In this document: piece by piece, positions 3,187 to 52,800 of the stretch
How positions within the stretch are numbered: the stretch's first letter is position 1
How the letters are laid out: each line of letters starts with the position of its first letter
DNA from: Fragilaria crotonensis
Lineage: Eukaryota > Bacillariophyta > Fragilariophyceae > Fragilariales > Fragilariaceae
Length of the DNA stretch: 55,643 nucleotides
Direction of reading: 5' to 3'
Assembly: GCA_022925895.1 (NCBI GenBank)
Contig: JAKSYS010000405.1
Span: 1 to 55,643, forward strand
Made by a program: the position numbers and the translations under genes
The notes under the pieces: model-generated
What the model was told of the DNA's origin: nothing
What the model saw: only the letters and a program-made list of their open reading frames with translations
Database searches by the model: none

Positions 3187-6100
3187 AGGAGCGATTCCCA
3201 GAGTTGACCAGCTCTTCGAATTTGCTCCACGAGTTCTTCGATAGAAAGAGATCCTGAGCTGTCCAAGATGCCTTGGTTGGTGTCATCAACAAAAGCTCCA
3301 ACTCGCCACTTTGTACGGAGGTCGTTCCACGGGTCGGAAAAATCGAGTCCAGGAATCTCGTCTTCATCGGAGATGCGGTCCAACGCATTCAATAGAATAA
3401 CCACAAGGCCCAGCCAGATGGCTGGGGAAGCGCCACTACCTTGTCCGTGCCGAAAAGAGGTTCCGTTTCTGATCCTATATGCTTGCGAAGCTGTCCCGTA
3501 TGCATGTTTGACCGAGTATTGCATCGTCCGCAGTGTCTCCGCTTGACATTTAACGGCCATCTTTGGCATCCCAAGGCGACGGCAAGCGATCATCCCCAGG
3601 GATGTAATAATTCTGTCATAACAGCCAGTTGCATCATTATCCATATGGGCACTATTAGCTCGTGTTTGTCTAATTAAGTCTTTTCCAGACGAGCAAAGTA
3701 CAGGGCGTCAGTTGTCATGCGACGCGGGCGTGACCCATGCTGTTGGTCATTGAGTGCCTGGTCGCTCGGCATTTTTGACCATTCGCCTCCCGTAGATGAT
3801 TTTTAGAAACAGATTGTAGTCGGCTTCAAAAAGATGAATCACCCGTAGACGTGTCAGAAAGGGGCGTCCAGCGTCTTTCTCGATGAGCGGAGTCACCGAG
3901 TGCGTCCAGCGTTCAGGAGCAAAGCCATTAGCGATGGGTAGATTCAAAAGTTGAGTATGAAGGTGCGCAGTATCATCGTCGAGGATTGCCGTGCGATAGT
4001 GCCCAAGATGGCGACCAGAGGGAGATGTCGAGGTTGATTCTTTCCATTCTTTGACGGTGCGGATGAACTGCTCTACAGAGATGGTTGTAGAGATAGGTTT
4101 CACTGAGGCCGGCCGCCTGCATTCTTCCAGAAACACTTGGAGTTCACGCCGCATCGGGAGACCAAGATATTCGACACAGGCGCCTCTACAATGGCTGTGG
4201 CAGGTTCAGTCAGACCGTCGTATCCAACAAGATCGAATAGAGCACCATGACCGAATGGGGTGTCCTTGGCTTGGCGAAACCATTCCTATTGTACCGAGTG
4301 AGTTCCTCTTCGATGGCATCACAGTCGATAAGCGTTGTATATTCAACCGATGTTTTGTCAGCCTGTGCCATAGCAATGAGTTGAGTGGCAGACGCGTGCC
4401 CATTCGCATCGCAGAACTTAGAAGCCACTTTATGATTCTGAACTCCAGAAGGGACAAAAAGTTTTGATAGACCCCAGCATGCCTCTCCTGCATGGACGCA
4501 TGGATGACGCTAAAGGCTTCTCATGTTTTCGATGTTAATAAGGCGTCAAGCCGACGAATCTTTGTTTCATTTGCGCTGCGAGCGCCAGCTTTGATTTCCT
4601 CGGGAGAGAAGTGTAAGCTGTGGTATCGTTCAAGAGTGCCCAAGAGATGTACTGCGCGATGATCATACGCAGCATTGCGAATTGTGCGGAGCAGTTTAAT
4701 GGCCTGTTTCCATCTCTGTTTGAGAGTTACCACGTCCGAACACTCGTCATTTGAGAGAGATGTTGAGGGACTTGGTTCTAGCAAGTAGACTTGCCAGAGC
4801 AGACCGGAGACATACATTGCTTTCAACTTCTCGCAAGCGAAGGTGCCAGTAGCGTGCAGTCAATCCAGCTTCTCGCAGTTTCGGAGACCATGCGTATTTC
4901 CCACTTGGCCGACGAGCTTGTTTCTCTGCGTGAAGCATTCCTCTTGTGACATCGCGATCAATTGCATCAAAGCTTTCTTTACATTGCTCTGGTGTGAGAG
5001 TGGACGCCACTGTTGTTAGATCTGCAACACGATCCCATAAACGATGGTCATCCGCATATTGCTTAAAAGATTCAAGATAGCGGTCCACCGACGGTTGATC
5101 TTCTGACCGAAGTGCTCTCGCTTTGGGTGGCGCAATTTTTTCGACCGATCCCATGAGTGATGTGAAGTCCAGATCGATAAAGATGCCCCTGTGTTTTGAG
5201 AAAATACCATTATCATATGCAATGTATCCCGCATTCCGGATGACCTGAACGATAGCAGTTGATCCTAACATGTAGTCAATGCGTCGACCGGTTCCATATT
5301 TGTACGTTGCAGGGGGATCAGAAGGTCCGAGAAGATGTAGATCTGTAAGTGTGCATTCGTCGATGAGATGTGCTAAGCCACAGGTTGTGTCCTGGCCAAG
5401 TATTTCATTTGCATCAAGAGAAACAATTACTTCGTGGCCCCTGGATTGCAGATTGTTCACAAAGGTGACCAAATCGGTGATAAACTGCCTTCGTACATTT
5501 GGTTTGGAGACCCCTTGAGATAGTAGGAGAGAGTGCTGTTGATCGAAGAAACCAAAGCCTCCAGAGGGTTGCTGGCGTGGGCTGCGGTACGCCGTGATAA
5601 TGGCAAGAAGCTTTCCTCGTTTTCCCAAGTAGCAGAGACCCGACCATCGTCCAAGGCCCGAGGGGTCCACCAGAGGTGTACCCGTGCTTCGAGTAGCCCA
5701 TCGGTCTGTTGTTGTCATAAACGTACCGCCTGGTTGGTATCCACTAGTAGAGCCCGACAGACGAGCAGAATCAGGGGGAAGCGTGCTGGAGGAGAAGGCA
5801 CTGCGTGACGTGCAGAAGTGTTTGCCGATAGGGCGTTGGAGACTTTGACGGACTATCGGATTGGAGAAATCAAGTCCCGGATCTGCCCAACAGAAGGTAC
5901 CGATCTTGAGTTGCGCCATACTTGACACATATAGTGCAATTTCGTCGGCGTCGTTCCTTAGCCCGTCGATGTTCTGAAAGTATATGCGATGAAGGTCTCC
6001 AGGGTCGTCATGGATGGAGTCACCCCATGTGTTGTCGTCTTCCTTGCAATGATGTTCGGAGGGTGCAGAGGTGAAAAAATTAAACAGAGTCTGTGCAGTG

Positions 6101-13128: not shown

Positions 13129-13590
13129 TTTGGACCCTAACCAAAAATGTAAAATAGGCAATTCTTATGGTGTCACCCCGAAATTCATGAACTCATGAAC
13201 TCCGTTCATTATCATCACTGAAATCAAAACTCATTCGGTCCATCAAACGACAATCTGTTCACAATGGATGACAATGAGACTCATCATTATGATATTCATG
13301 CAGTTGACTGGGATGATGACACGGATATGATGGCTGCTGCTGTGTTGGTAGTAGTGAATACCAACATAGCTATCATGAATTGTATCATGCTCGCTCATGA
13401 AGAACAACAGGAACAAGAGCGACTTCAGTTGATGGATGACGTCCTGCCACCAAATCAAGCCTACAGACATCCACCAGTACCGCAATACATACAAGTACCG
13501 GTAATGTTGCACGGTGGCACCACACAAGTCTCTGCACTGCTACCTTGTAGTACAAGGTCCGTAGGCGAGAGCTCAATAGCTCATAGCTCC

Positions 13591-14574
13591 ATGAGCGACA
13601 GCCAACAAACAGCAACCAATATGAGTGACCCAAATGCACTCAAGTCGATCTTGACTGGTCCTCCTGAGACCACAGCTCACCTAGTCTGGGATTTGAAGTG
13701 CGAGCTAGGAGAATGCTGTCTTTATGATGACGAAACCAACGAGATCGTGTTTTCCGATATTCTGGGGAAACGTCTTCACAAGCTGTCCTTGGAGAACGGT
13801 GCCACAAAGTCTTTTGAACTTCCAAAGATGTTGGGATCGTTTGCACTTTTGGAGAAGGGAGCGAAGGGATACCTCTGTGCGTGGGAGGATTCGTTTCAGA
13901 TATACGACGTGGAGTCGAAGCAAGGTGTATCTGCCATCAGCCATGGAGAAGCCGTCAACCCAGACGGCTTACCCACACGCCTTAATGATGGGCGTTGCGA
14001 TCGGATCGGCAAGCATTTTATTTGCGGTGGGTACTACGGTGATGTCCAAGGAAAGGAGATGAAGGTCTATAAATGTACTATCGGTGAAGACAAAAGCTTG
14101 GTACATACCCCATTAGTCGATTCGATTCGAGTCACGAACAGTTTGTGCTTTTCACCAGACGGATCAACTATGTATCTTGCAGACTCTCCCTCAAAGAAAA
14201 TCCACAAGTTTGATTACAATGACGGAAAAATTTCCAATAAGACTGAATTTCATCATCAAGCGGTTGGAGTGCCTGATGGCTCGTGCGTCGACGCTGAAGG
14301 CTTCCTGTGGAGTGCGATATGGAGAAGCGGAGAAGGCCCCTCATGCGTTGTACGCCTTGACCCTTTTTCTGGCGAAGAAGTGTATCGAGTCAACGTTCCA
14401 GACAATACATCCCAAGTGTCTTGTTGTTGCTTTGGAGGAACGGACTTGAATACATTGTTCATTACTACCGCTGCCGAGCAACGCCAAGATTCTGAGCCAC
14501 ACGCAGGCGGTTTGTATGCGGTCAAGCTTCCATTCAAGGGGCTCCTCGAAAGTCGTTTCTGCGTTACTCGATAG
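13591..14574 (+). CDS. SMP-30/gluconolactonase/LRE-family protein
   Basis: This is a beta-propeller hydrolase of the SMP-30/gluconolactonase family (family role: Ca2+- or Zn2+-dependent opening of aldonolactones). From the chosen start the protein is 327 residues, normal for the family. Visible family blocks are LGECCLYD (metal-ligand Glu), RLNDGRCDRIGKHFICGG (substrate-site region), TNSLCFSPDGSTMYLAD (metal-ligand Asn) and PDGSCVDAEGFLW (metal-ligand Asp), then FGGTDLNTLFITT. The frame is open back to an ATG at 13264, adding 109 residues (Asp/His/Met-rich, then Gln/Glu-rich) that fall outside the enzyme fold; I prefer 13591, with 13621 also possible. There is no signal peptide. It ends 29 bases from the stop of the convergent Cache-receptor gene. 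Copy 1 keeps only the first third. Confidence 0.85.
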   Translation: MSDSQQTATNMSDPNALKSILTGPPETTAHLVWDLKCELGECCLYDDETNEIVFSDILGKRLHKLSLENGATKSFELPKMLGSFALLEKGAKGYLCAWEDSFQIYDVESKQGVSAISHGEAVNPDGLPTRLNDGRCDRIGKHFICGGYYGDVQGKEMKVYKCTIGEDKSLVHTPLVDSIRVTNSLCFSPDGSTMYLADSPSKKIHKFDYNDGKISNKTEFHHQAVGVPDGSCVDAEGFLWSAIWRSGEGPSCVVRLDPFSGEEVYRVNVPDNTSQVSCCCFGGTDLNTLFITTAAEQRQDSEPHAGGLYAVKLPFKGLLESRFCVTR

Positions 14575-14603: not shown

Positions 14604-17600
14604 TTAGAACTTCTCCATGCCGAAGCCTCTCAACGTGACGCCCCCACCAATTATGGAAGCCACCTCGGCAAATGCATTCGACATGGATTGCGCGTCACCT
14701 TTTGTTTCGATCAGGGCAGATTTCCGACTACGGCAGATCGAACGCAAGCTTGAAATCATAGTTTCCGATAAGTTGATTCCCACCACGAGAAGGTGAACAG
14801 GCTGATCTCGGTTCAAAGCAGCACCCACAGCTTGCACAGAGTCCCAATCTTGGTGATCGCTCCATGACTTACATTCGGTGACGACGACTATCCACGTTGT
14901 TGTTTGCGACCTCTCCACCATACTGAGGGGTTGATGAAAGCCATCTGATAGCGGCGCCTGCAAGATTGGAACCGCGGTGCCGAACGGCAGAGTCGCGAGT
15001 CGTGATGAAGTCATTGCACACTTCTCAGTCAGATTGAAGCCTAGATCAGAGCCGCCGGCGCAGGCGAACATTGCCAAGCCAACTCTGTCACGGGTATTAC
15101 AGATCTTGGTGTACAGAGCGGTTACGCCCTCTTGAACAGCCTTCCGATGTTCAGCGTTAACGCCGAGGTTAGCGTCGATAGAAAAGATGATATTCTTTTC
15201 CATGGCCTGCAAAGAAACTGGACTTCTACAGGCTTTGTGCATACGGCAGAAATGATCCTTCGTCATGGCAACAGTTTCTGGCGTCCAATTGACGTTTTTG
15301 CGATCGTCCATGTCGAGTAACATTGCATCCGCTGCAGCCGCGAAAGCGGATTCGATGAGGTATTCGTCTTCAATGAACATTCGGACTGCGTAGCGTGCAG
15401 CGTCTTTCACGTTTCCACGCTTTAATTCGTTGCGAATGGCAACCTCTTCCAATTGTTGGAGACGTCCGATGCGGGTCACCTGTTGAATCAATGGCGCTTG
15501 ATCGTCCTTGCCAATCGAACAAAGGAGATTATCAGCCTCGTTGAGGAGCTCCTCGACATAGATCGAGTTGTCGTCAGCGCAGGACAGCAGTCCAGAAATC
15601 CTACGGATAAGTCTGTCAAAATAGACTTCGGAATTCGATGTAACTTGACGAGTACGAACCCAAAAGTCACGAACATCAGTGTCCAATCTTGCAGCTGATC
15701 TGAGATCTTTCCTGGCCATCTCACGCGAATTCTTCAGTGCACACGGATCGTCGATTGAAAGCAATAGGAAAATGCCGCGGTTGAAGTATCGGTTCGCAAG
15801 CTGCTGGGCGAAACCCGCGCGTTCCTCGTCGTCAATGCTTTCGTTGTTGACAGCATTTTCGTAATCAACAACCACTAAATCTATAGCTTCGCAGTAGCAC
15901 TCATGTGCTGCAGCCTTGACACATATCTCCTCAGCAAAACAACACCTCTCTGGGTTTCCTTTGGCCAAATACAGCGAGAGATATGTATTGCCAAGGTTGT
16001 TCAGAGCAACGCCGATCGCTTTCTGGTCATTCACGTTGCGATACAGAACCAGAGCATCTATCAGAAACTTCAATGCCCATTCAATGTTTCCAGAAAAGAA
16101 TGCTGTGTTGGATAGGCGTACGATCTTGGAAAGCTTTGCGAAGGAATTGTATAAATGGTTCACTGACCGGGAACCCCCATCAATTGGAGGAATGTCGTCG
16201 TCGATATGACCTTTGTTGATTCCAGTAACGATGCTGCAAAGGATCATGACCGGGGTAACAATCTCAACGGCAACCATGGATGTCAAGAAAGTTGCTATAA
16301 CAGCTGTGGTCATTGAAGCAACCAGGAAGATGATAAGGAGAACCAACAAGCTGTGATCAAGTTCTTCATTGGACGATTCGGTCAAGGTTGCACGTGGCAC
16401 AGCTATCGAGAATAAGTAGACAATGGAGTCGTTCTCAGCAACTCCCCTCGTATAGTCGCTACTGTTCAACGTTTCAACAGTCCGCATGCGCACAGGACTG
16501 AATGCAACGTATAGCGATTCCACTTCTCCACTTTGTAGTGTACGTGAAAAGTAATCTGAACCAGCTTCGCCAGCCTTCATTTTGTCAACAATAGTTCCAA
16601 ACCGGTTTCGAAAGTCGGATCCTTCGTCGTCGTTTGGCAAAACCAATTCCTTAATGGAGGCGGTGGTGGAATTCCCAAGGATATAGTTTGGTGCAACGAT
16701 AGTGTCACCTCCGAAGACGTCATTCGACGGCGTTATCACAAAAATAGTGCTTTGTCCTCGGAGACCAACTCGCGTCCTCGATAATTGCTTCAACAGAGCA
16801 TCAGGGTTGAAATCAAGAACCACTTGTCCAACATGAGAATCCACAATTGTATCGTAAATTGACGCTGTCATGCTAGCGCCAATTGTCTTACCATCCGCAA
16901 ATAAATATGGGGCTGTCGTATGAGTCCTGCCGAGAGACTTGCCATCGGCATACCATCCCCGACACCGCGGATCATACCCAAACTTTCCGATAGGGCATAT
17001 GTCACCTCGAATCACAGCTGCTCCATTAGTCGCAGTCGATTCAAAATGCGCTAGTTGGGCATACGAGTAGTCGCAACCGGAGAAGCCAGTTAGCATACCG
17101 TCGGATTCAAGACCAACATACGTTCCAAGGTATCTGGCTCGCTCTGACCATCCCCCAGCGTAGTTGTAGATTGGGAACTCGACAACCGATACGGCGGACA
17201 AGACTCGAACACGATCATATGTGGTTTCATAGCCAGATGAATTCTCCCCCCTTTTCGATCCCGGTATTTCTGTTACATTATCCCACCAGCTTGTTTTCTC
17301 AGGACTGATGTCGACAAAAGGAAGCTTCACAGAACTTCTGGCTCCAGTCAGGAGATTAGCATCGCGCCTTTGACTGGCCCAAAACCTTCGCTGCAAGTTA
17401 CGCGAGTCCACCCTGTAGTTCTGGCATGCCAATCCTTTTTCATCGTTCCAATCGCAATCACACGGAGTCTGGTTTTTATCTTGAAAGAATGGGCATGATA
17501 AGTCGTCAGGAAAAACCTTGCATTGCTCTGTCGCTGTGATAACGGCAGTGAGCGAATCATTTCGTTCAATCACGGCTAGGAGAAGCCATTCGCTAAATCG

Positions 17601-19988
17601 TCTGTACAAGTGAAGGTCACGAGAGACTTCAAGGAATATGTCTCCTGCATATTGTGCTCGTGATTGCGTCATAACTCGAACATGCTCTTCTGCTAGTGTC
17701 AACGATTGATCTTCTGCTGAGGCGACGAGATCGGGAAACGCAATGATGATCTTGGATGACACAACCCCAGTTATGGCAAAAACTGTGACCAATAATGGGA
17801 TCACGATCAGAAACACGATCCACCAGAACAACGGGGAATTGCGGATAGACAGTTTTCGCGTAGCAGCCTTGTGAAGCTCGACTTGTTTGCGATCCGAAGC
17901 TTCGCGCCAGTGGAGATTGCGCCCGCAATGGATTCTGGAAATTCTTTGCTGACTCGGACCATTTCCCCATGGCTCGACCACAACTGGTTTTGTCACTTCA
18001 GACACCGCGCCGCTTCGCTTCTCACTACTCTCGACGAACGTTGAAAGATCGACGTCTGCAAGGTCTTCGGTCGCCAACTCAAACGCTGCACGAAAATTCT
18101 TGCTAACACGAGGCTTTACAACGACGTCACAAAGCACTGGCTCTTCTATCGTTTCGTCTCCTGAATGTTCAACTTTGTCAAGGCAGTATAGTTGATGGAA
18201 GTCATGCTTCCTCTCTAAAGTATTTTCAATCTCGTAGAAGGTATCCTGCGCAACGCGAGATGGTCCGTCGCCCGAAAAACCTTGAATCATTGTACCGAAG
18301 CCTGTCACCAACGTAGTTATCTCAGTCTTGGGGGTCCATCGCATCGATGGCTTGTCCTCGATACTGAGGTCGAGCTCGGAGTCAACAATTCGTCTTGATT
18401 GTGCTTCCATCCACTGAAGCGATTTCGTCAGCCAGCACGATACTAACCATGTGAGACACAATACCACCAAAAGCCCCAACAACCCCAAAACAGTAGAGAT
18501 AACAACTATGTCAAGAACGCTATTGTTGACAGCACGCTCAATGACTTTGATCGATTTGAATACTTCAGTCACGTTGATGATCGTTAGAAGAATCAGTTGA
18601 GGCTGGTAGGTCGGATCACTGATTGGGGGTGCGGGAGGAATCGGATACGCTGTCACAAAATTGCCTTCGCTGTCTGAATATAAGTGATCATTTTCTTGAC
18701 CCTGATTACCATCGAAATATGCCAAGACTTGGTTTTTAATCTCATCAAATGCCTCCATCGATAGCCCTATGTCGGTGACCTGAAATGATGTAGTTTCTTG
18801 GGTACGATTTTCCCCGCCCTCAGCAATGACGCTGCCGTCGCTCCATCGCACCATCGATACTTGTGTATTGTTCTGCGCCAGTTCATTCAACAAGTCCCCT
18901 ACAAAGTTGACGGACACGTCCGCAACACTGCAACCTATGAACTCGCCAGTCATACGGTCGAAGATCCCCCGCCCAAAAGCCAAAATCCACGCATCCGATC
19001 GAAATGCGTCAATAAACGGGCCAGAGATAACGGGGGAACCACCCGCCAACGCTTGATCACGACACCAGAGTCTTTCAAGAGCGTTGTATTCTCGTCCGGG
19101 AACTTGCTCTCCGTCCTTATGACACCGACCCGCTTGACTAGCGGTGGCGAATGGGATGCCAGTATGTGGATTGAGGTTGTCAAGCATCCAGTCACAGCCT
19201 ATCGATACGTACGACGCCCTTCCGTCCCTTAATACCGCAGGGTATGACACAGAAGCTCCGGCGCCATCGTTGAAAAAATAGACGCCAATGTTTCCGATCG
19301 TGGAGTGGGCTTCAAACAGCGGCTTCAAAATGTACTGTAGGAAACCAACCTTTTGGTATAGTGTTGATACCACAGGCGAAACCACTCCCGCTGTCTTCGG
19401 GTCATTGTTTGCGTCAGTGCAGTTGGGATAGTAGGATCGATCACCCTCCGTTGCCGAAGGATCACATTGTCCCTGAAACCTGAATGTTGCGTGAGCACAT
19501 GATATTGGGGTGTCACCGTACCAGTCTCTCCGTGTTTCCCCTATGTGCTCCAAATAGTTTTCCGCGTTGACCTCGACCGTAATATTCCAATCTGGAGGAA
19601 GGTTTACGGGAGCCAGAGGATAACGTCGTTCGCCAGAGACCATGTCTACAAAGGGCACTTGATCATCTGTCTCCCAATTCCTCCCAACAATTCTATCGCG
19701 CGTTGCTTCCACAAGTATGGACACAGCTCCATGTATGCCATCTGATCGCCTTGATACTGTATCAGCTAGAGACTCAGATGAGACTCGTACTGTTCGAATT
19801 GCTTGTGTTCTCAGGGTGGATTCCGCTGCCAAGTGAACGTCATGCCCCGCAATGACGGAAATTACAATCGATACTCCGATGATCGTGAGAATTGCGATGG
19901 TAGATATTGATCCAAACGAAATCAACAGTTGATACCTCAGCGAGTTGTTTGACTTCAGGCAGAACCTACGAAGCAAATGGCGCACCAT
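14604..19988 (-). CDS. Four-TM receptor with two Cache modules, TPR-like helices and vWA-like C-terminus
   Basis: This 1794-residue single-exon protein repeats a chemoreceptor layout twice. TM1 (about 19-48) leads to extracellular Cache-like module A (to ~490, with NPHTGIPF, CRDQALAGGSPVISGPF), TM2 (~492-520) and a HAMP-like stretch plus cytosolic linker. TM3 (~719-745) leads to module B, with the hallmark YDPRCRGWY followed by APYLFADG, then TM4 (~1213-1240) and a second HAMP-like stretch. The cytosolic tail has TPR-like helices (~1285-1395, e.g. AIGVALNNLGNTYLSLYLAKG) and a vWA-like domain (~1600-1780: NIIFSIDANLG, RVGLAMFA, TWIVVVTE, HLLVVGIN). The usual MIDAS DxSxS reads DANLG, so metal binding is doubtful. 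There are many N-glycosylation sequons and cysteines outside. No kinase, cyclase or phosphatase domain is visible. The ligand is unknown; the Cache fold typically senses small molecules. Domain calls are by eye. Confidence 0.85.
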   Translation of the reverse strand: MVRHLLRRFCLKSNNSLRYQLLISFGSISTIAILTIIGVSIVISVIAGHDVHLAAESTLRTQAIRTVRVSSESLADTVSRRSDGIHGAVSILVEATRDRIVGRNWETDDQVPFVDMVSGERRYPLAPVNLPPDWNITVEVNAENYLEHIGETRRDWYGDTPISCAHATFRFQGQCDPSATEGDRSYYPNCTDANNDPKTAGVVSPVVSTLYQKVGFLQYILKPLFEAHSTIGNIGVYFFNDGAGASVSYPAVLRDGRASYVSIGCDWMLDNLNPHTGIPFATASQAGRCHKDGEQVPGREYNALERLWCRDQALAGGSPVISGPFIDAFRSDAWILAFGRGIFDRMTGEFIGCSVADVSVNFVGDLLNELAQNNTQVSMVRWSDGSVIAEGGENRTQETTSFQVTDIGLSMEAFDEIKNQVLAYFDGNQGQENDHLYSDSEGNFVTAYPIPPAPPISDPTYQPQLILLTIINVTEVFKSIKVIERAVNNSVLDIVVISTVLGLLGLLVVLCLTWLVSCWLTKSLQWMEAQSRRIVDSELDLSIEDKPSMRWTPKTEITTLVTGFGTMIQGFSGDGPSRVAQDTFYEIENTLERKHDFHQLYCLDKVEHSGDETIEEPVLCDVVVKPRVSKNFRAAFELATEDLADVDLSTFVESSEKRSGAVSEVTKPVVVEPWGNGPSQQRISRIHCGRNLHWREASDRKQVELHKAATRKLSIRNSPLFWWIVFLIVIPLLVTVFAITGVVSSKIIIAFPDLVASAEDQSLTLAEEHVRVMTQSRAQYAGDIFLEVSRDLHLYRRFSEWLLLAVIERNDSLTAVITATEQCKVFPDDLSCPFFQDKNQTPCDCDWNDEKGLACQNYRVDSRNLQRRFWASQRRDANLLTGARSSVKLPFVDISPEKTSWWDNVTEIPGSKRGENSSGYETTYDRVRVLSAVSVVEFPIYNYAGGWSERARYLGTYVGLESDGMLTGFSGCDYSYAQLAHFESTATNGAAVIRGDICPIGKFGYDPRCRGWYADGKSLGRTHTTAPYLFADGKTIGASMTASIYDTIVDSHVGQVVLDFNPDALLKQLSRTRVGLRGQSTIFVITPSNDVFGGDTIVAPNYILGNSTTASIKELVLPNDDEGSDFRNRFGTIVDKMKAGEAGSDYFSRTLQSGEVESLYVAFSPVRMRTVETLNSSDYTRGVAENDSIVYLFSIAVPRATLTESSNEELDHSLLVLLIIFLVASMTTAVIATFLTSMVAVEIVTPVMILCSIVTGINKGHIDDDIPPIDGGSRSVNHLYNSFAKLSKIVRLSNTAFFSGNIEWALKFLIDALVLYRNVNDQKAIGVALNNLGNTYLSLYLAKGNPERCCFAEEICVKAAAHECYCEAIDLVVVDYENAVNNESIDDEERAGFAQQLANRYFNRGIFLLLSIDDPCALKNSREMARKDLRSAARLDTDVRDFWVRTRQVTSNSEVYFDRLIRRISGLLSCADDNSIYVEELLNEADNLLCSIGKDDQAPLIQQVTRIGRLQQLEEVAIRNELKRGNVKDAARYAVRMFIEDEYLIESAFAAAADAMLLDMDDRKNVNWTPETVAMTKDHFCRMHKACRSPVSLQAMEKNIIFSIDANLGVNAEHRKAVQEGVTALYTKICNTRDRVGLAMFACAGGSDLGFNLTEKCAMTSSRLATLPFGTAVPILQAPLSDGFHQPLSMVERSQTTTWIVVVTECKSWSDHQDWDSVQAVGAALNRDQPVHLLVVGINLSETMISSLRSICRSRKSALIETKGDAQSMSNAFAEVASIIGGGVTLRGFGMEKF

Positions 19989-27278: not shown

Positions 27279-28154
27279 GACGATGACGCTGGCATAACCA
27301 GTTTAGCACCAGCCAGACACAGAACGGAAATGATTTTCGCCTCCGGCCAGCGTGAATTCGACCGTGATTCACGACTAAGCGTGTATTGCCGGACCTTCCA
27401 GGGACTCTCGTGGCTGTCAAATTTGAATATGGGCGCGGCTCAATGGCTCACACAAAGATTCAAACGGCACCTAATACAGTAGGTAGAACTCCATACAACG
27501 TGTGTATCCCTAGTATGACATTTCAATATTCAAGCTATATAAATAGAGGAATACATGTGCCCATATTTCAGTTTCATAACCGAAATTCCCTTGATGAAAC
27601 ATTCCGTGACATCTTGCTGACGTCAAAATTCGTCATCCTGGTGGTTTCGACCCTGATCTGCCACGAGGCGCGTCGAAGTGGAAGTTCTCATCAAAAAAGA
27701 TCACAGTTCCAATCCAAAGATCGCGTTCGAAGGTCATATGCATATAACAGTGCTGGGTCTACTCTGTACTCGCAGTACCAGGTAGTTCATTATATATATT
27801 TCATGCATATATATCATAGATGTACAATCAAGAAACAACGCCGAGGAGTGCGTCAGTACATGCTGGATTCGTGTGGGACGTTAATTTTCTAAGTGAAGGA
27901 CGTTGGGAAAGTACCTAAAGCAATCGCAAATACCTAAGTGATGTTTTTTGGTGGTGGATCAAATTTGTTATATACACGTATCCTACATGTCTTTTAAATG
28001 GCCATCCGATACTTCTGTTTGAGACGTATGAGGTACTAGTACCTGGTATGAGGCATGACATCTACTTGCGCACGCGAGGAAACTGTGCGATCAGTCATGT
28101 TCTTCTCACAACAGAACAAAAACTCAGCAAAGAGAAACGGTGAGAGGGAAAGCT
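27279..28154. other. Upstream region of the LRR gene
   Basis: A 168-codon frame (27386-27892) has no recognisable domain and irregular composition, so I treat it as chance. The final ~100 bases include an ACGGTGAGAG string at 28137, resembling a splice donor. A short upstream exon (ATG near 28055) is conceivable but unproven. Confidence 0.4.
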
Positions 28155-29597
28155 ATGAGCATGTGGTTGGCAAACACATCCCTGATGAGACCCTCTATTC
28201 CAGATTGGCTCGAAGACCTCTGTCAGCGCTTGACAGATAATGATCCAACGCTCACAACTCTTGAAATTTCGCATCAAAGAATTGATGACACATCTGTAAA
28301 ATACCTCAGTAAGGCGTTGAATGAGAACCGTACCGTCACAATTCTGATTATTTCACTTTTTAACGTGGTGGACGATGGGTCGTTCACGTTAGGTCAAGTT
28401 ATTAGCGCTAACCGACACATCAAGAAATTACAGTTCCGTGATCTTCACCACTCTCGCGAAGTAATTACACTTTTCGAGGCCGTCGGAAGGAATGACACCA
28501 TCGAAGAATTCTCGCTTCGCCACTGCCGGATATGCAGCCGAAGCGCTGAGTCGCTTGGGATTCTGGTGCGTCATCAACGCTCGATCAAGGAATTGCGTCT
28601 CGTGGACAGTGTCATACTTGGAGATACCTTGCACCCGTTGGCTGAGGGTCTTGTGACCAATAAGACATTGGAAAGACTATTTCTGGTGAACTGCGAAATT
28701 GGGGCGAAGGAGGCGAGCTTTCTAGGTTCCAGGGTGGCCCAGAGTACAACTCTGAAGGAGTTGCACCTCAGTGAAAACAATCTTGGTGACGATGGAGTTC
28801 TGAAATTGTGCAGCGGCATTCAGAGCAACTGCTCACTGACCACACTCGATCTCCGTTCGAACAATATCGGAAGCAAGGGAGCGTTGGCCCTTGAAACGTT
28901 GATTGTACGACACCGGTCACTTACTCATCTGTATGTAGGATGCAATCGGTTGGGCTGTGCCGGAGTAGCTTCCCTTGCAACAGGACTCGCTCAAAGTTCC
29001 AACATTCTTGTTCTGGATCTCAGTGACAATGGTATTGAGGCGTCAGGCGCGGAAGCGCTTGCCAGAACACTCTCCTTCAATCCGAAACTCCAGGATTTGA
29101 ACCTCTCATTCAATTTTCTGGGAGATCAAGGTGCGACTGCGATTTCCTCCGTCTTGGAAACCAACCACATTCTCCTTCGTCTGGGCCTACGTCGGAATCA
29201 TATTAGCAATGTGGGTGCCACAGCGATTGCACAGCTCCTCCCCTCCATGCGGGGCCTACGTGAGCTTGTCCTGACCAAGAATTTGATCGACTGTGACGGA
29301 GCGGCGTTGTTGCTGGCAGGATTGCGAACCAATATGGAACTTGAATACTTACACATTGAGGATTCCGATCTCTCTCAACCAATTCTAACTGAATTAGCCC
29401 ATTGGATTGGTCTTAACCAAGCGGGACGTCGGATCTTCCGAGAGACGAATCTGGATGTGGGACTGTGGGCGCAGGTATTGGCCAAAGTGAACAATGAACC
29501 CAACGTTCTGTTCCACTTCTTGACCGAGAAGCCTGAGTTCTTGCAGCTGAACATGAATAGAGGGATGTACCTTGTGAATGATTTGAGTCGCTTTTGA
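28155..29597 (+). CDS. Leucine-rich repeat protein (RNase-inhibitor/NLR-type LRRs)
   Basis: The protein is 480 residues from the first ATG (another ATG lies two codons on). About twelve LRRs of ~28 residues run from residue ~25 to ~415. They have the RI-type consensus seen in KELHLSENNLGDDGVLKL, TTLDLRSNNIGSKGALAL and LVLDLSDNGIEASGAEAL. A C-terminal cap (LNQAGRRIF, then VLFHFLTEKPEF) resembles the cap common to algal LRR proteins. There is no NACHT/NB-ARC, kinase, signal peptide or transmembrane segment, so it is probably a soluble protein-interaction scaffold. Its binding partner is unknown. It is convergent with the RAD51-like gene (193 bases between stops). Confidence 0.88.
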   Translation: MSMWLANTSLMRPSIPDWLEDLCQRLTDNDPTLTTLEISHQRIDDTSVKYLSKALNENRTVTILIISLFNVVDDGSFTLGQVISANRHIKKLQFRDLHHSREVITLFEAVGRNDTIEEFSLRHCRICSRSAESLGILVRHQRSIKELRLVDSVILGDTLHPLAEGLVTNKTLERLFLVNCEIGAKEASFLGSRVAQSTTLKELHLSENNLGDDGVLKLCSGIQSNCSLTTLDLRSNNIGSKGALALETLIVRHRSLTHLYVGCNRLGCAGVASLATGLAQSSNILVLDLSDNGIEASGAEALARTLSFNPKLQDLNLSFNFLGDQGATAISSVLETNHILLRLGLRRNHISNVGATAIAQLLPSMRGLRELVLTKNLIDCDGAALLLAGLRTNMELEYLHIEDSDLSQPILTELAHWIGLNQAGRRIFRETNLDVGLWAQVLAKVNNEPNVLFHFLTEKPEFLQLNMNRGMYLVNDLSRF

Positions 29598-29790: not shown

Positions 29791-30813
29791 TTAGCATGGT
29801 TCGACGTGCTGCTCCTGAATCCCATGCGCAGAAATGGCGAAATGCGTTGTCTCCACTGGCCTGTGAGAATTGCGACGCAACGTCGCTTCGACTTTGGGTC
29901 CCTTGGCAGCAAGCCGAAGGTGTGTTTCGGGGACTCGAGCCGACCATGTGGCACCCAATGCCGAGTCTCCAGATGCTGTTGTTCCATTTGTCATGACGAT
30001 GCGCACTTCTCCTGCTGTAGTGAGGTGGACGAGACGTTTGAGAGTCACACCAATTTGAGTCAACAGGTTCCAATCACTGCAGCCACCAAGACAACCTGAT
30101 GCTGAATCGAGTATCAAAAGTAATGATTTTGGTGAGTCGGCACAAGTGGTGGTGGATGATTCATTTTCCGCCACTTGATGCAAGGCTGTCAAAAGTTGAT
30201 GAGGTGTCGACAGCTGCATCAAGTTGATGTTCTCCAAGACATGTCGCTGTTGAATGCTATGCTGTGACGCAACCAATTGACGCAATCGTCGAGCGAGAGC
30301 GGATGGAGGTGTTGTGGTGGAAATGTACAATACTCGATGTTGCTGTTGCTGTTTCTCATGTTGTAACGAAGACACGGCAAGAGAAAGGCACAATTGTGTC
30401 TTTCCGGAAGCGGAAGGGCCTGTGATTTGGATCAGACGCGAGCTAGACAGCCAGGAACTAAGAATGGTGCATCCAGGAATCACGACTGAGGAGGCATGTC
30501 GTGTTTCAGAATGTCGCCAGTATTCCAAGGCAGTGAGAGATCCGGTGATCAGTCTTTTGTTGCCATCCTGTTTGTCATGTTCAAGTTGTTGTGCCGCGAT
30601 TCGCACTGTATCCGTCGATGTTTGTACTAGGATAGCGTCTGCCACATGTGCTCGAACTTGGTTCCAATAAGAAAGTGGAACCCTCAATTGACCAGCAGTT
30701 GAGGCGGGATCTCGGGCAAGTAAGGCAAGAGGTGTTAAAATCGGAGGTTGGACGTCGTCGCGGAGTTTCTGCAGCAATTCAGGAGCGACACGTAAAGACT
30801 GCAAAGTGGGCAT
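29791..30813 (-). CDS. RAD51-paralogue-like RecA-fold ATPase (RAD51D-like)
   Basis: This is a 340-residue protein of the RecA/RAD51 family, which acts in homologous-recombination repair in the nucleus. Walker A is GPSASGKTQ at about residues 131-139, preceded by a strand of the form SSRLIQITG. Walker B is LLLILDSASG at about 230. Downstream, VRIVMTNGTTASG and ALGATWSARVPETHLRL match the C-terminal block typical of RAD51D/XRCC2-like paralogues. The N-terminal ~80 residues are not recognisable as a helix-hairpin-helix. A Gln/His-rich insertion follows Walker A. The assignment to RAD51D and not another paralogue is tentative. The gene is divergent from the sarcosine-dehydrogenase-like gene across ~385 bases. 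Confidence 0.8.
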   Translation of the reverse strand: MPTLQSLRVAPELLQKLRDDVQPPILTPLALLARDPASTAGQLRVPLSYWNQVRAHVADAILVQTSTDTVRIAAQQLEHDKQDGNKRLITGSLTALEYWRHSETRHASSVVIPGCTILSSWLSSSRLIQITGPSASGKTQLCLSLAVSSLQHEKQQQQHRVLYISTTTPPSALARRLRQLVASQHSIQQRHVLENINLMQLSTPHQLLTALHQVAENESSTTTCADSPKSLLLILDSASGCLGGCSDWNLLTQIGVTLKRLVHLTTAGEVRIVMTNGTTASGDSALGATWSARVPETHLRLAAKGPKVEATLRRNSHRPVETTHFAISAHGIQEQHVEPC

Positions 30814-49117: not shown

Positions 49118-52100
49118 ATGGCCGAACGCAGTATAATCTGGGTGAGAGGAGATTTGATTGCATCTGCCTCGTCGACAACTGCTGTTTCTCCTACCAGTAG
49201 TTGGAAGAAGAGCCTAGGAGACGTTGCCACAGATGCCAGTCCAACCAAGTTCCGTTGGGTTCAATGTTACTTATTGGGTGGAAGTGTGACGGATCCAGAA
49301 CTATCGATTGAAGTTGCCTCAGCATCCAATGAATTTGAAGTTGGACAAAGGGCCACCATATCGACCAACTTGGTGCCTGGGGCCGTTCTCATGGGGAACG
49401 ACCTCGGGCCGCCTCCGAGTGACTTGATTACTTTGACCCACCTTCATGAACCGTCGGTAGTGTACAGCTTGCAGAAGCGATACGAATCGGACACCATCTA
49501 CACGTCTACAGGTCCCATTCTACTGGCTTTGAATCCCTTCAAATCATTACCCGGTTTGTACAACGAAGACAAAATGATGACATACTGGAGACATGGAGAA
49601 GGGATGGAGAGAGATCCAGTGGATCCACATGTCTACGCAAGTGCTGATCTTGCCTTTCGTCAAATGCTAATTGGAATTGAATTGAATCAGGCCAATCAAA
49701 CAAAGAACAACAATACATATCCTACAATTGCAACCGACCCACCGGATACGAATACAGGTCTCGTGGACCAATCGATATTGGTATCGGGCGAATCGGGAGC
49801 TGGAAAGACTGTCACCACCAAGCACATTATGAAATACTTGGCATCCGTATCCGAGCGCAATGCAGAACATGACAAACGACGCCGTGCTCCCTCCCCAGGA
49901 CGAGGCGACATGGATGCTCCTCGCCGATCGCAATCGCTACGATTGAGTCGTGGAACGAGTTGGAAGGCTGGGGCGCATATTGAAGAAAAGAGTACGTTGG
50001 AATACGACTAAAATGCCTGGCCGACAGCATGTTTTCGATACGTGTTTGTATCTCACACCTCGTTTGTGCTCTTGTTGAATGTATCCAAAATTGCGTTGGC
50101 AGTCCTCGAATCCACCCCCATTCTAGAATCCTTCGGAAACGCTCGTACGATTCGAAATGACAATTCGTCTCGTTTTGGAAAATTCATCGAGCTGCAATTC
50201 AAGCAGACAGGATCGCTCATTGGTGCAGTTGTGGATACGTACCTGCTGGAAAAGGTTCGTCTGGTGCACCAGTCACCGGGAGAACGCAATTTTCACATCT
50301 TTTATGAAATGTTATCTGCCCTCAACGACGAAGAACGCGAGGCGTACTACTTGCAAGATTACACAGCACAAGATTTCAAGCTTACGAACCAATCGGGAAC
50401 ATATGATAGGCGAGATGGAGTGGATGACGCTGTCGTGTATGACAAACTTGCCGTTTGTAAGTTGACAATGTGGCGAATTCTGTTCAACGTCAATTTCTGC
50501 CTTCATCTAATAACTCGTATCCATGATCAGCGATGAGTACATTGGGCATCGATGCCAAGACTCAAGAAGATATCTTTCGATGCACTATATCATTTCTGCA
50601 CGCGTCCAATCTGACGTTTCGGGTTGTTGACGATGATTCCTGTCTGCTCGATGAATCGAATCCTCATCTGGAACCAGTTTTGAAATTGTTGGGGCTGGAG
50701 AAGAATGAATTCGAAAATGCACTGTGCCAGTTTGAAATAGAAGCTGGAAGTACCTCTTATTCGCGCACCGTCAATCAAGAAGGCGCGCAAAAGGGGCTTG
50801 AGGCGCTCATCAAATCCACGTATGGATCAATGTTCAACTTTATCGTTCAGTCCATCAACAAAAAGATCGACTTCAAGGTGACGAAAGGGGAAATGGGTGT
50901 CAGCAAGGCAGCGTTTATTGGAGTGCTGGACATTTTCGGATTTGAGTCTTTCAATATCAATTCCTTTGAACAATTGTGCATTAACTATTGCAACGAAGCG
51001 CTCCAGCAGCAGTTCAATCGCTACGTGTTCATGACGGAACAAGAGGAATACAAAAAAGAGGGAATAGCATGGGAGTTCATCGAATTTCCGGATAATCAGG
51101 ACGTGATCGATTTGATTGACAAGCGCGGAGAAGGCATTATTCCGATCTTGACCGATCAGTGTCGCACAACTCGTGGATCAGACAAGTCCTTCGCTGAGGC
51201 GCTTTATTCTCGTTGTGAGAAACATCCTCGCTTCCAAGCGCCTTCCTTGACGAAAGGAAAGAAGCAGTTCATCGTCAACCATTATGCCGGTCCAGTGACC
51301 TACAATTATGAAGGCTTTGTAGAGAAAAACAAGGATGAAATTCCTCGAGGAGCCTCAACCCTTTTGGAGGGGTCGACGATTGGCTTTGTCCAGTTGTTGG
51401 GGAAAATTGGCGCCGCTCAAACAAGCGCTGGGACAGGCCGCGCCACCAAGCGCCCGACGGCAGGAGGTCAGTTTACGCGCCAATTGAGTGAGCTGCGTAA
51501 GCGAATCGACTTCACGTCACCCCATTACATCCGTTGTCTGAAGCCAAATCAGTCGCTCAAGCCAAATGACTTTGACCAGGCTATGATTGCCGACCAGCTT
51601 CGCTATGCTGGAGTGTTGGAAGCGATTCGCGTTTCTCGTGTTGGCTATTCCCAGCGTTATACGCACGAGACATTCCTTAGTCGATATCGGTTTATTGCTC
51701 TGGCTGAATTGGAACGAGCGTCGAATAAAGTGGATACCTTGGTTAATGCAATCGCGAAGAAGATATATTCGTCGGAGCATCCGAATGCTGCATTGCCTTC
51801 AAATCTCTTGGACGCCGTCGGTATTCAGCACGGCCTTACCAAAGTATTTCTTCGCCAGCCAGCCTTCGAATACATGGAGAGTTTCCGCACACAGCAGCTC
51901 AATGTAGCGGCCACCAGGTGCCAAGCCCTGGCACGCCGATTCCTGTGTCGTAAGCGTTACTTGGAAATCCTCAATTGGATCGTTTTGGGCCAGGCATGTG
52001 GTCGTCGATTCTTGGCACGCAAACATATGATTCAACTCCGTCGAGAAAAGTCTGCGACGACAGTGCAACGTCAATATCGTATGTGGTACAATCGCGAGAA

Positions 52101-52800
52101 ATTTCTCGAAAAGAAATGGCTCGCTGTGTGGTGTCAAAGAATGGCGAGAGGCAAGGCTGGTCGAGTGAAATTCCACGAAGCCTTGGAGCATCGAAAGGAG
52201 GAGTTGGCTCTGAAGGAGCGCCAGAGAAAAGCAGCATCCTCCGTTCAGAGTTTATACCGAGGAAATGTCGCAAGGAAGAATGTTCTGGAAATGAGGCAAC
52301 AGCAAACAAGCGAAGCAGTTGTCGACGAGGCGCAATCAGAGGCAGTTATGGTTCTGAAGAAGCAGTCAGAGAAGGCAGCTTTGCAGGCCGATAAAGCAGC
52401 TGCCGTTGCGGTTCAGACAAAGCACGAGCGCAAGATCGAGATCGACGCTCTCCGGCACGAACTCGATGGTGTGAGCTCCGCTGCGGCCAATGCCAAGTTA
52501 ATGGCAGAAGAGATCGCCAGTGTCAGGGCGGAAGCAGAATTATTACGTAAGGAGCTTGAGTTGTCGAAGGCAGAGACGGAACGAGCAAAATCTCGACTCT
52601 TGGCTGTTGAGAGCGAAAACCAAGCACTGAAGGCCAAGCTCAAGAATGGGGGACATTTTGAGACATACAAGAGCACTCGCTTTGAAGAACACGGGGATCT
52701 GCTACAGCTGGACGAGCGTATTAACAACTTTGCCCTGAGAAGTAAGCAGGGACGAAAGGATCTTGATGCACTGGTTCAATCGTTGGCAATCTTGAGATGA
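49118..52800 (+). CDS. Myosin heavy chain, class unassigned (2 introns)
   Basis: This is an actin-based motor of 1165 residues after splicing exons 49118-49991, 50103-50456 and 50531-52800. Intron 1 (111 bp, GTACGT donor) and intron 2 (74 bp, GTAAGT donor) are both phase 1, and all motor motifs fall into frame after removal. Motifs are the P-loop GESGAGKT (~223), switch I NDNSSRFGKF (~310), switch II DIFGFESF (~543) and HYIRCLKPN (~739, near the actin site). A neck with several IQ-like repeats (AATRCQALARRFLCRKRYLE onward) spans ~868-995. A single short coiled coil (~1005-1115) and a ~50-residue tail follow. There is no FYVE, PH, MyTH4 or FERM domain. An Arg/Ser-rich insertion sits shortly after the P-loop helix. 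It ends 42 bases from the convergent glycosyltransferase. Confidence 0.93.

Follow-up and report, generated by a model that had tools for sequence, protein, structure and literature searches.

Cache domains are present in eukaryotes in alpha2-delta proteins, histidine kinases and an adenylate cyclase from Naegleria, according to the available portion of PMC4822843. The histidine kinases and the Naegleria cyclase carry Cache in a membrane signalling protein and end in enzyme domains. In alpha2-delta proteins, the vWA domain is extracellular and interrupts the first dCache domain; its metal site is intact in alpha2-delta-1 and -2 (PMC9901441, in excerpt). In bacteria, dCache_1 chemoreceptors such as PctA, PctC and the Mlp-type MCPs have a dCache outer region flanked by transmembrane (TM) segments. 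The same excerpt of PMC9901441 gives the amino-acid motif of dCache_1 as Y, R, W and Y in the first module, followed by Y and D, and the excerpt of PMC11245519 places it in PctA at Y121, W128, Y129, Y144 and D173.

Here we describe a putative receptor gene of the diatom Fragilaria crotonensis, located in a stretch of 55,643 nucleotides that was analysed as a whole (the window). Its product resembles the bacterial chemoreceptors in having TM-flanked dCache-type outer regions, and PctA in particular in the stretch YDPRxRxWY with a later Y and D (residue numbers as in the excerpt of PMC11245519). However, it has two such units in one chain, large insertions with cysteines shared with a paralogue and, in place of an MCP signalling domain, a TPR array followed by a vWA-like tail. 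In common with the eukaryotic alpha2-delta and CACHD1 proteins it has a vWA and the amino-acid motif, along with what appear to be double Cache domains (PMC9901441, in excerpt), but its vWA is C-terminal, follows the TPR array and appears to have a degenerate metal site. It is like the Cache histidine kinases and the Naegleria cyclase in placing Cache in a probable membrane signalling protein, but none of their enzyme domains was detected in it. The vWA similarity extends to subunit D of magnesium and cobalt chelatases (TIGR02031 and TIGR02442), from which the protein differs in lacking the AAA+ part and in the replacement of the metal-site serines. By its parts, it matches none of the eukaryotic Cache types in the available portion of PMC4822843, and no paper title on a diatom Cache receptor was found in the open-licence literature searched. 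As judged from sequence, it would be a protein of known domains in a new order, with a predicted job.

The gene is a single uninterrupted open reading frame of 1,794 codons, which encodes a chain with four hydrophobic segments and two outer regions of Cache type, followed by a TPR array and a tail resembling vWA (Table 1). The first-pass annotation had given a parts list for this protein that is partly confirmed and appears to hold in outline: the order of TM, Cache, TPR and vWA-like parts stands, as do the two receptor-like halves, each a Cache region flanked by TM segments, while the HAMP-like stretches of the list were not confirmed. No kinase, cyclase or phosphodiesterase domain was found in the protein with Pfam at E<=1, in agreement with the earlier claim that it has no enzymatic output, and the MCP cytosolic signalling domain is absent from its Pfam matches at the same threshold. 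Several other genes were noted in the window. A SMP-30/gluconolactonase-like gene (13264-14574, forward strand, E 1.1e-58) is convergent with the receptor gene, their stop codons being separated by 29 bases. A leucine-rich repeat protein (28140-29597, forward), a Rad51-like ATPase (29791-30813, reverse) and a partial myosin motor frame with an IQ motif (50533-52800, forward) are also present.

Table 1. Features of the putative receptor gene and its product; the limits of the regions around the TM segments were set by us.
Feature	Residues (aa)	Position in window	Strand	Basis
Whole gene	1,794 aa	14604..19988	-	One open frame; 100% self match, 32-36% match to paralogue on C229
TM1	27-47	19848..19910	-	Hydropathy 2.63; net +3 on N-terminal side
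Cache1 outer region	48-487 (dCache_1 match 306-400)	18528..19847	-	Pfam dCache_1
TM2	488-516	18441..18527	-	Hydropathy 2.99
HAMP-like stretch 1 (putative)	517-573	18270..18440	-	By eye; no Pfam HAMP match
TM3	719-745	17754..17834	-	Hydropathy 2.86; net +3 before, -2 after
Cache2 outer region	746-1207	16368..17753	-	Paralogue match, PDB profile match, half-to-half match
Cache2 motif	Y1005 R1010 W1012 Y1013 Y1028 D1059	16812..16976	-	Register against PctA
TM4	1208-1240	16269..16367	-	Hydropathy 2.79
HAMP-like stretch 2 (putative)	1241-1292	16113..16268	-	AdeS_HK, aa 1189-1290
TPR array	1293-1572	15273..16112	-	LGN/Pins by profile and Foldseek; model helices
vWA-like domain, metal site apparently degenerate	1573-1786	14631..15272	-	TIGR02442; VWA_2 protein match

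One paralogue was detected in the assembly of the same genome (62.1 Mb, 881 contigs), as a 1,685-aa frame on contig C229 with 33% overall identity. It has the same order of parts as the window protein but lacks the vWA, and when the tail served as a tblastn query on the 9.8 kb surrounding its locus, only a 16-residue match (E 2.7) appeared. As the paralogue does without it, the vWA is a variable part of these proteins. The C-terminal letters are MEFF in the paralogue (5820-5841 of its extracted locus) and MEKF in the window protein (14604-14620), a likeness that could be due to chance and at most hints at loss of the vWA in the paralogue rather than its gain in the window gene. With the paralogue as query, the genome yielded only the two family genes at E<=1, and the dCache_1 model found only the same two at E<=0.001, in searches where only the best candidates were scored, exon by exon. 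No relatives were found in viral contigs (three profile queries and one DNA pattern) or in prokaryote genome contigs (two profile queries), as searched with short conserved peptides that may miss distant relatives, and a tblastn with the paralogue found none in plasmids. The family so far consists of two genes in one diatom, the eukaryotic scope being its own genome.

The genome is taken to be that of a diatom on its matches to the silicon transporter family, which number 19, 18 of them above the cut-off (best E 4e-193); as a control, one of 14 other genomes gave a match, which was below the cut-off. Three silicon transporter domains lie head to tail in a single 1,456-aa open frame (C97:29749-33762) and two in a 1,008-aa frame (C771:21664-24330). 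Fused silicon transporters are known in some pennate diatoms.

Hydropathy gave four strong segments, with peaks at aa 28-46, 494-512, 724-742 and 1214-1232, and a fifth, weaker peak at aa 465-483 that adjoins the second strong one. Three lines of evidence bear on the orientation of the chain. Positive charge (net +3) precedes TM1 and likewise TM3. Furthermore, 12 of the 18 N-x-S/T sequons of the window protein and 14 of the 16 of the paralogue fall in the two outer regions, where shuffling of the window protein's regions leads to an expectation of 6.0 against the 12 observed. Finally, 14 of the 17 cysteines common to both proteins are in the outer regions, six in Cache1 and eight in Cache2 (hypergeometric p 0.03). 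Because of this charge bias and the placement of sequons and shared cysteines, a topology with the Cache regions outside and the TPR-vWA part inside is modestly supported. The remaining sequons of the window protein are found in the cytosolic tail (four), TM2 (one) and the N-terminus (one), and those of the paralogue in a supposedly cytosolic loop (two); these exceptions count against this topology. The vWA-like tail sits after TM4 and would thus be cytosolic, unlike that of alpha2-delta, as had been proposed.

Cache1 of the window protein matches Pfam dCache_1 (PF02743) with E 2.8e-7 and 30.8 bits, and Cache1 of the paralogue with E 1.5e-11 and 44.7 bits, both below the curated cut-off of 45 bits. 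A two-sequence profile of Cache1 found MCP sensor chains in the PDB (E 9.3e-7). Cache2 is fainter: the full window protein gave a Pfam Cache match of only E 0.1 in this region, and the region cut out alone gave nothing Cache-like in Pfam. Cache2 of the paralogue matched MCP-like_PDC_1 with E 6.1e-4 and 20.6 bits (curated cut-off 27), and the two-sequence profile of Cache2 found the MCP chain 6iop in the PDB (E 0.0017). Cache2 was assigned because of its match in the paralogue, its amino-acid motif and its match to Cache1. The last was seen between Cache1 of the paralogue and Cache2 of the window protein with TM segments excluded (score 88, z 9.8, reached by none of 1000 shuffles), while the remaining three Cache1-Cache2 pairings gave no score (z -0.83, 0.37 and 0.54). 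Between the halves, blastp gave E 6.9e-6 and hhalign was weak (probability 1.2%, E 0.044). The two halves are probably homologous, at least in part. An exact duplication was set aside, since one of four pairings scores and the hhalign probability is 1.2%.

Cache2 is in register with PctA, whose stretch reads YDPRSRPWY in the phmmer alignment, and has the published amino-acid motif complete, with each of its six residues in place. Between Y and R there are four letters in PctA and in Cache2, and three in the excerpted text of PMC9901441. The coding pattern for YDPRxRxWY lies at 16950-16976 of the window; it occurs at two sites in the 62-Mb assembly, one in each family gene, against none for the reversed control and none in 100 shuffled windows, which is more than chance. 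Since the full motif is present in Cache2 and the pattern is confined to the two-gene family, we predict that the ligand of Cache2 is of amino-acid type. Cache1 retains four of the six residues (Y301, R306, W308 and D357), and C309 and F325 stand where the motif has two tyrosines. This variant pocket probably serves another ligand, or Cache1 may be a dimer or regulatory unit. In the paralogue, five of the six residues are found in Cache1 and five in Cache2.

The first-pass annotation had placed a HAMP-like stretch in each half, a claim that was not confirmed. Pfam HAMP had no match at E<=10 in the protein pieces scanned and none at E<=1 across the organism's own genome, and only the AdeS_HK model matched TM4 and the stretch that follows it (E 0.007). 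Compared with one another, the two stretches score no better than shuffled sequence (z -0.7 to 1.4). HAMP as an established domain was rejected on the missing Pfam match.

The TPR array is closest, among solved structures, to the TPR domain of LGN/Pins (GPSM2), both by sequence and by model, with weak E-values. Its two-sequence profile retrieved PDB chains of PINS/LGN, with E 0.013 at best, in a search where no single stretch passes alone, and LGN/Pins took 21 of the first 22 rows in a Foldseek search of the model (best E 2.7e-3, none <=0.001). Pfam TPR matches are weak (TPR_10 with E 1.6 in the window protein, TPR_12 with E 0.12 in the paralogue). The AlphaFold models were built from a two-sequence alignment; the TPR model is a row of helix pairs with pLDDT of about 50-75 in much of the array, while the Cache half (aa 1-1200) has a mean pLDDT of 31.4 and no usable fold, and the vWA model is poor.

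For the tail, NCBIfam TIGR02442 matched aa 1572-1756 of the full-length chain (E 3e-5) and was absent from all five cut pieces holding the tail, three of which matched TIGR02031 (E 0.0015-0.0027). None of the Pfam VWA models matched the tail at E<=10. Nine vWA proteins were found in the organism's own genome, and five of them, picked for the DxSxS motif, were compared with the tail. The tail matched two near-identical VWA_2 proteins (z 9.5 and 10.0, reached by none of 1000 shuffles), which we take to be magnesium chelatase subunit D, and gave no signal with the three others. These comparisons point to vWA sequence similarity of chelatase-D type. The DxSxS metal-site motif is altered: D1605-A-N1607-L-G1609 (DANLG) aligns to DASGS, and a later D is E1705 in the window protein (aligned by eye). 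The metal site thus looks degenerate, and a metal-dependent adhesion domain (MIDAS) was rejected on the altered DxSxS. Because the vWA is missing from the paralogue and its metal site seems degenerate, it would be at most an accessory docking module. Two near-identical vWA proteins of the genome, with the look of magnesium chelatase subunit D, lie at C553:32885-33202 and C649:17429-17746, possibly two alleles assembled apart. At C279:40120-49633, three vWA matches share a strand at intervals of about 4.5 kb, and their frames have a GDVNxDG-type stretch that resembles, by eye, a calcium-binding dockerin loop.

We give an even chance to the reading in which the protein is a surface receptor with two TM-Cache-TM units in one chain, an amino-acid-like ligand and an output by docking through the TPR array, with the vWA where present. 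The six motif residues of Cache2 would form a pocket that binds an alpha-amino acid or a closely related derivative. Binding would shift helices through TM4 into the linker, perhaps HAMP-like, and this shift would alter the exposure of the cytosolic TPR array, so that a partner protein is recruited. The vWA-like tail may add a metal-independent docking surface in one of the two genes. The surface location, the ligand, the helix relay and the partner binding are what we infer. This reading is favoured by the dCache similarity, the complete Cache2 motif, the sequons, the shared cysteines, the LGN-like TPR array and the chelatase-D-like vWA; it is weakened by the faint Pfam score of Cache2, the weak hhalign result, the three null pairings, the poor model, the exceptional sequons and the linker without a HAMP match.

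The LGN-like array is also compatible with a scaffold or co-receptor, rather unlikely in our judgement, in which the pockets are minor and the TPR array holds another signalling protein, for instance a G-protein regulator or a guanylate cyclase, in place at the membrane. There are 24 guanylate-cyclase matches in the genome, and as none is on the two contigs of the family, a separate output enzyme is possible; however, the full motif in Cache2 suggests that a ligand is still bound. The same receptor design may instead serve a relative of amino acids, such as an amine, a purine, a cyclic dipeptide or another small molecule. According to the excerpts of PMC11245519 and PMC12415202, dCache domains for amines and purines share some of the motif besides the aromatic pair, and dCache_1 is a group within which ligand families evolve; Cache1 also lacks two of the six residues. 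We consider this ligand class unlikely, as Cache2 retains all six, the arginine included. A channel subunit of the alpha2-delta kind, which would account for Cache and vWA within one chain, is very improbable: the vWA is at the far C-terminus, past TM4 and the TPR array rather than inside the first dCache, it is lacking in the paralogue and it has a seemingly degenerate metal site. A relationship to alpha2-delta was rejected on this order of parts.

Returning to the receptor reading, the two genes may form a family of fused dCache units without an enzyme, which would signal by opening a TPR/vWA docking platform and, through the amino-acid pocket familiar from bacteria and alpha2-delta, sense dissolved amino acids or an amino-acid-derived signal, e.g. 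a cyclic dipeptide pheromone. This broader proposal is tentative and we hold it to be doubtful. As a candidate receptor whose pocket residues can be named and whose ligand class is predicted, the window protein lends itself to a direct binding test. Its non-enzymatic design, if true, would be an addition to the few eukaryotic Cache proteins given in the available portion of PMC4822843.
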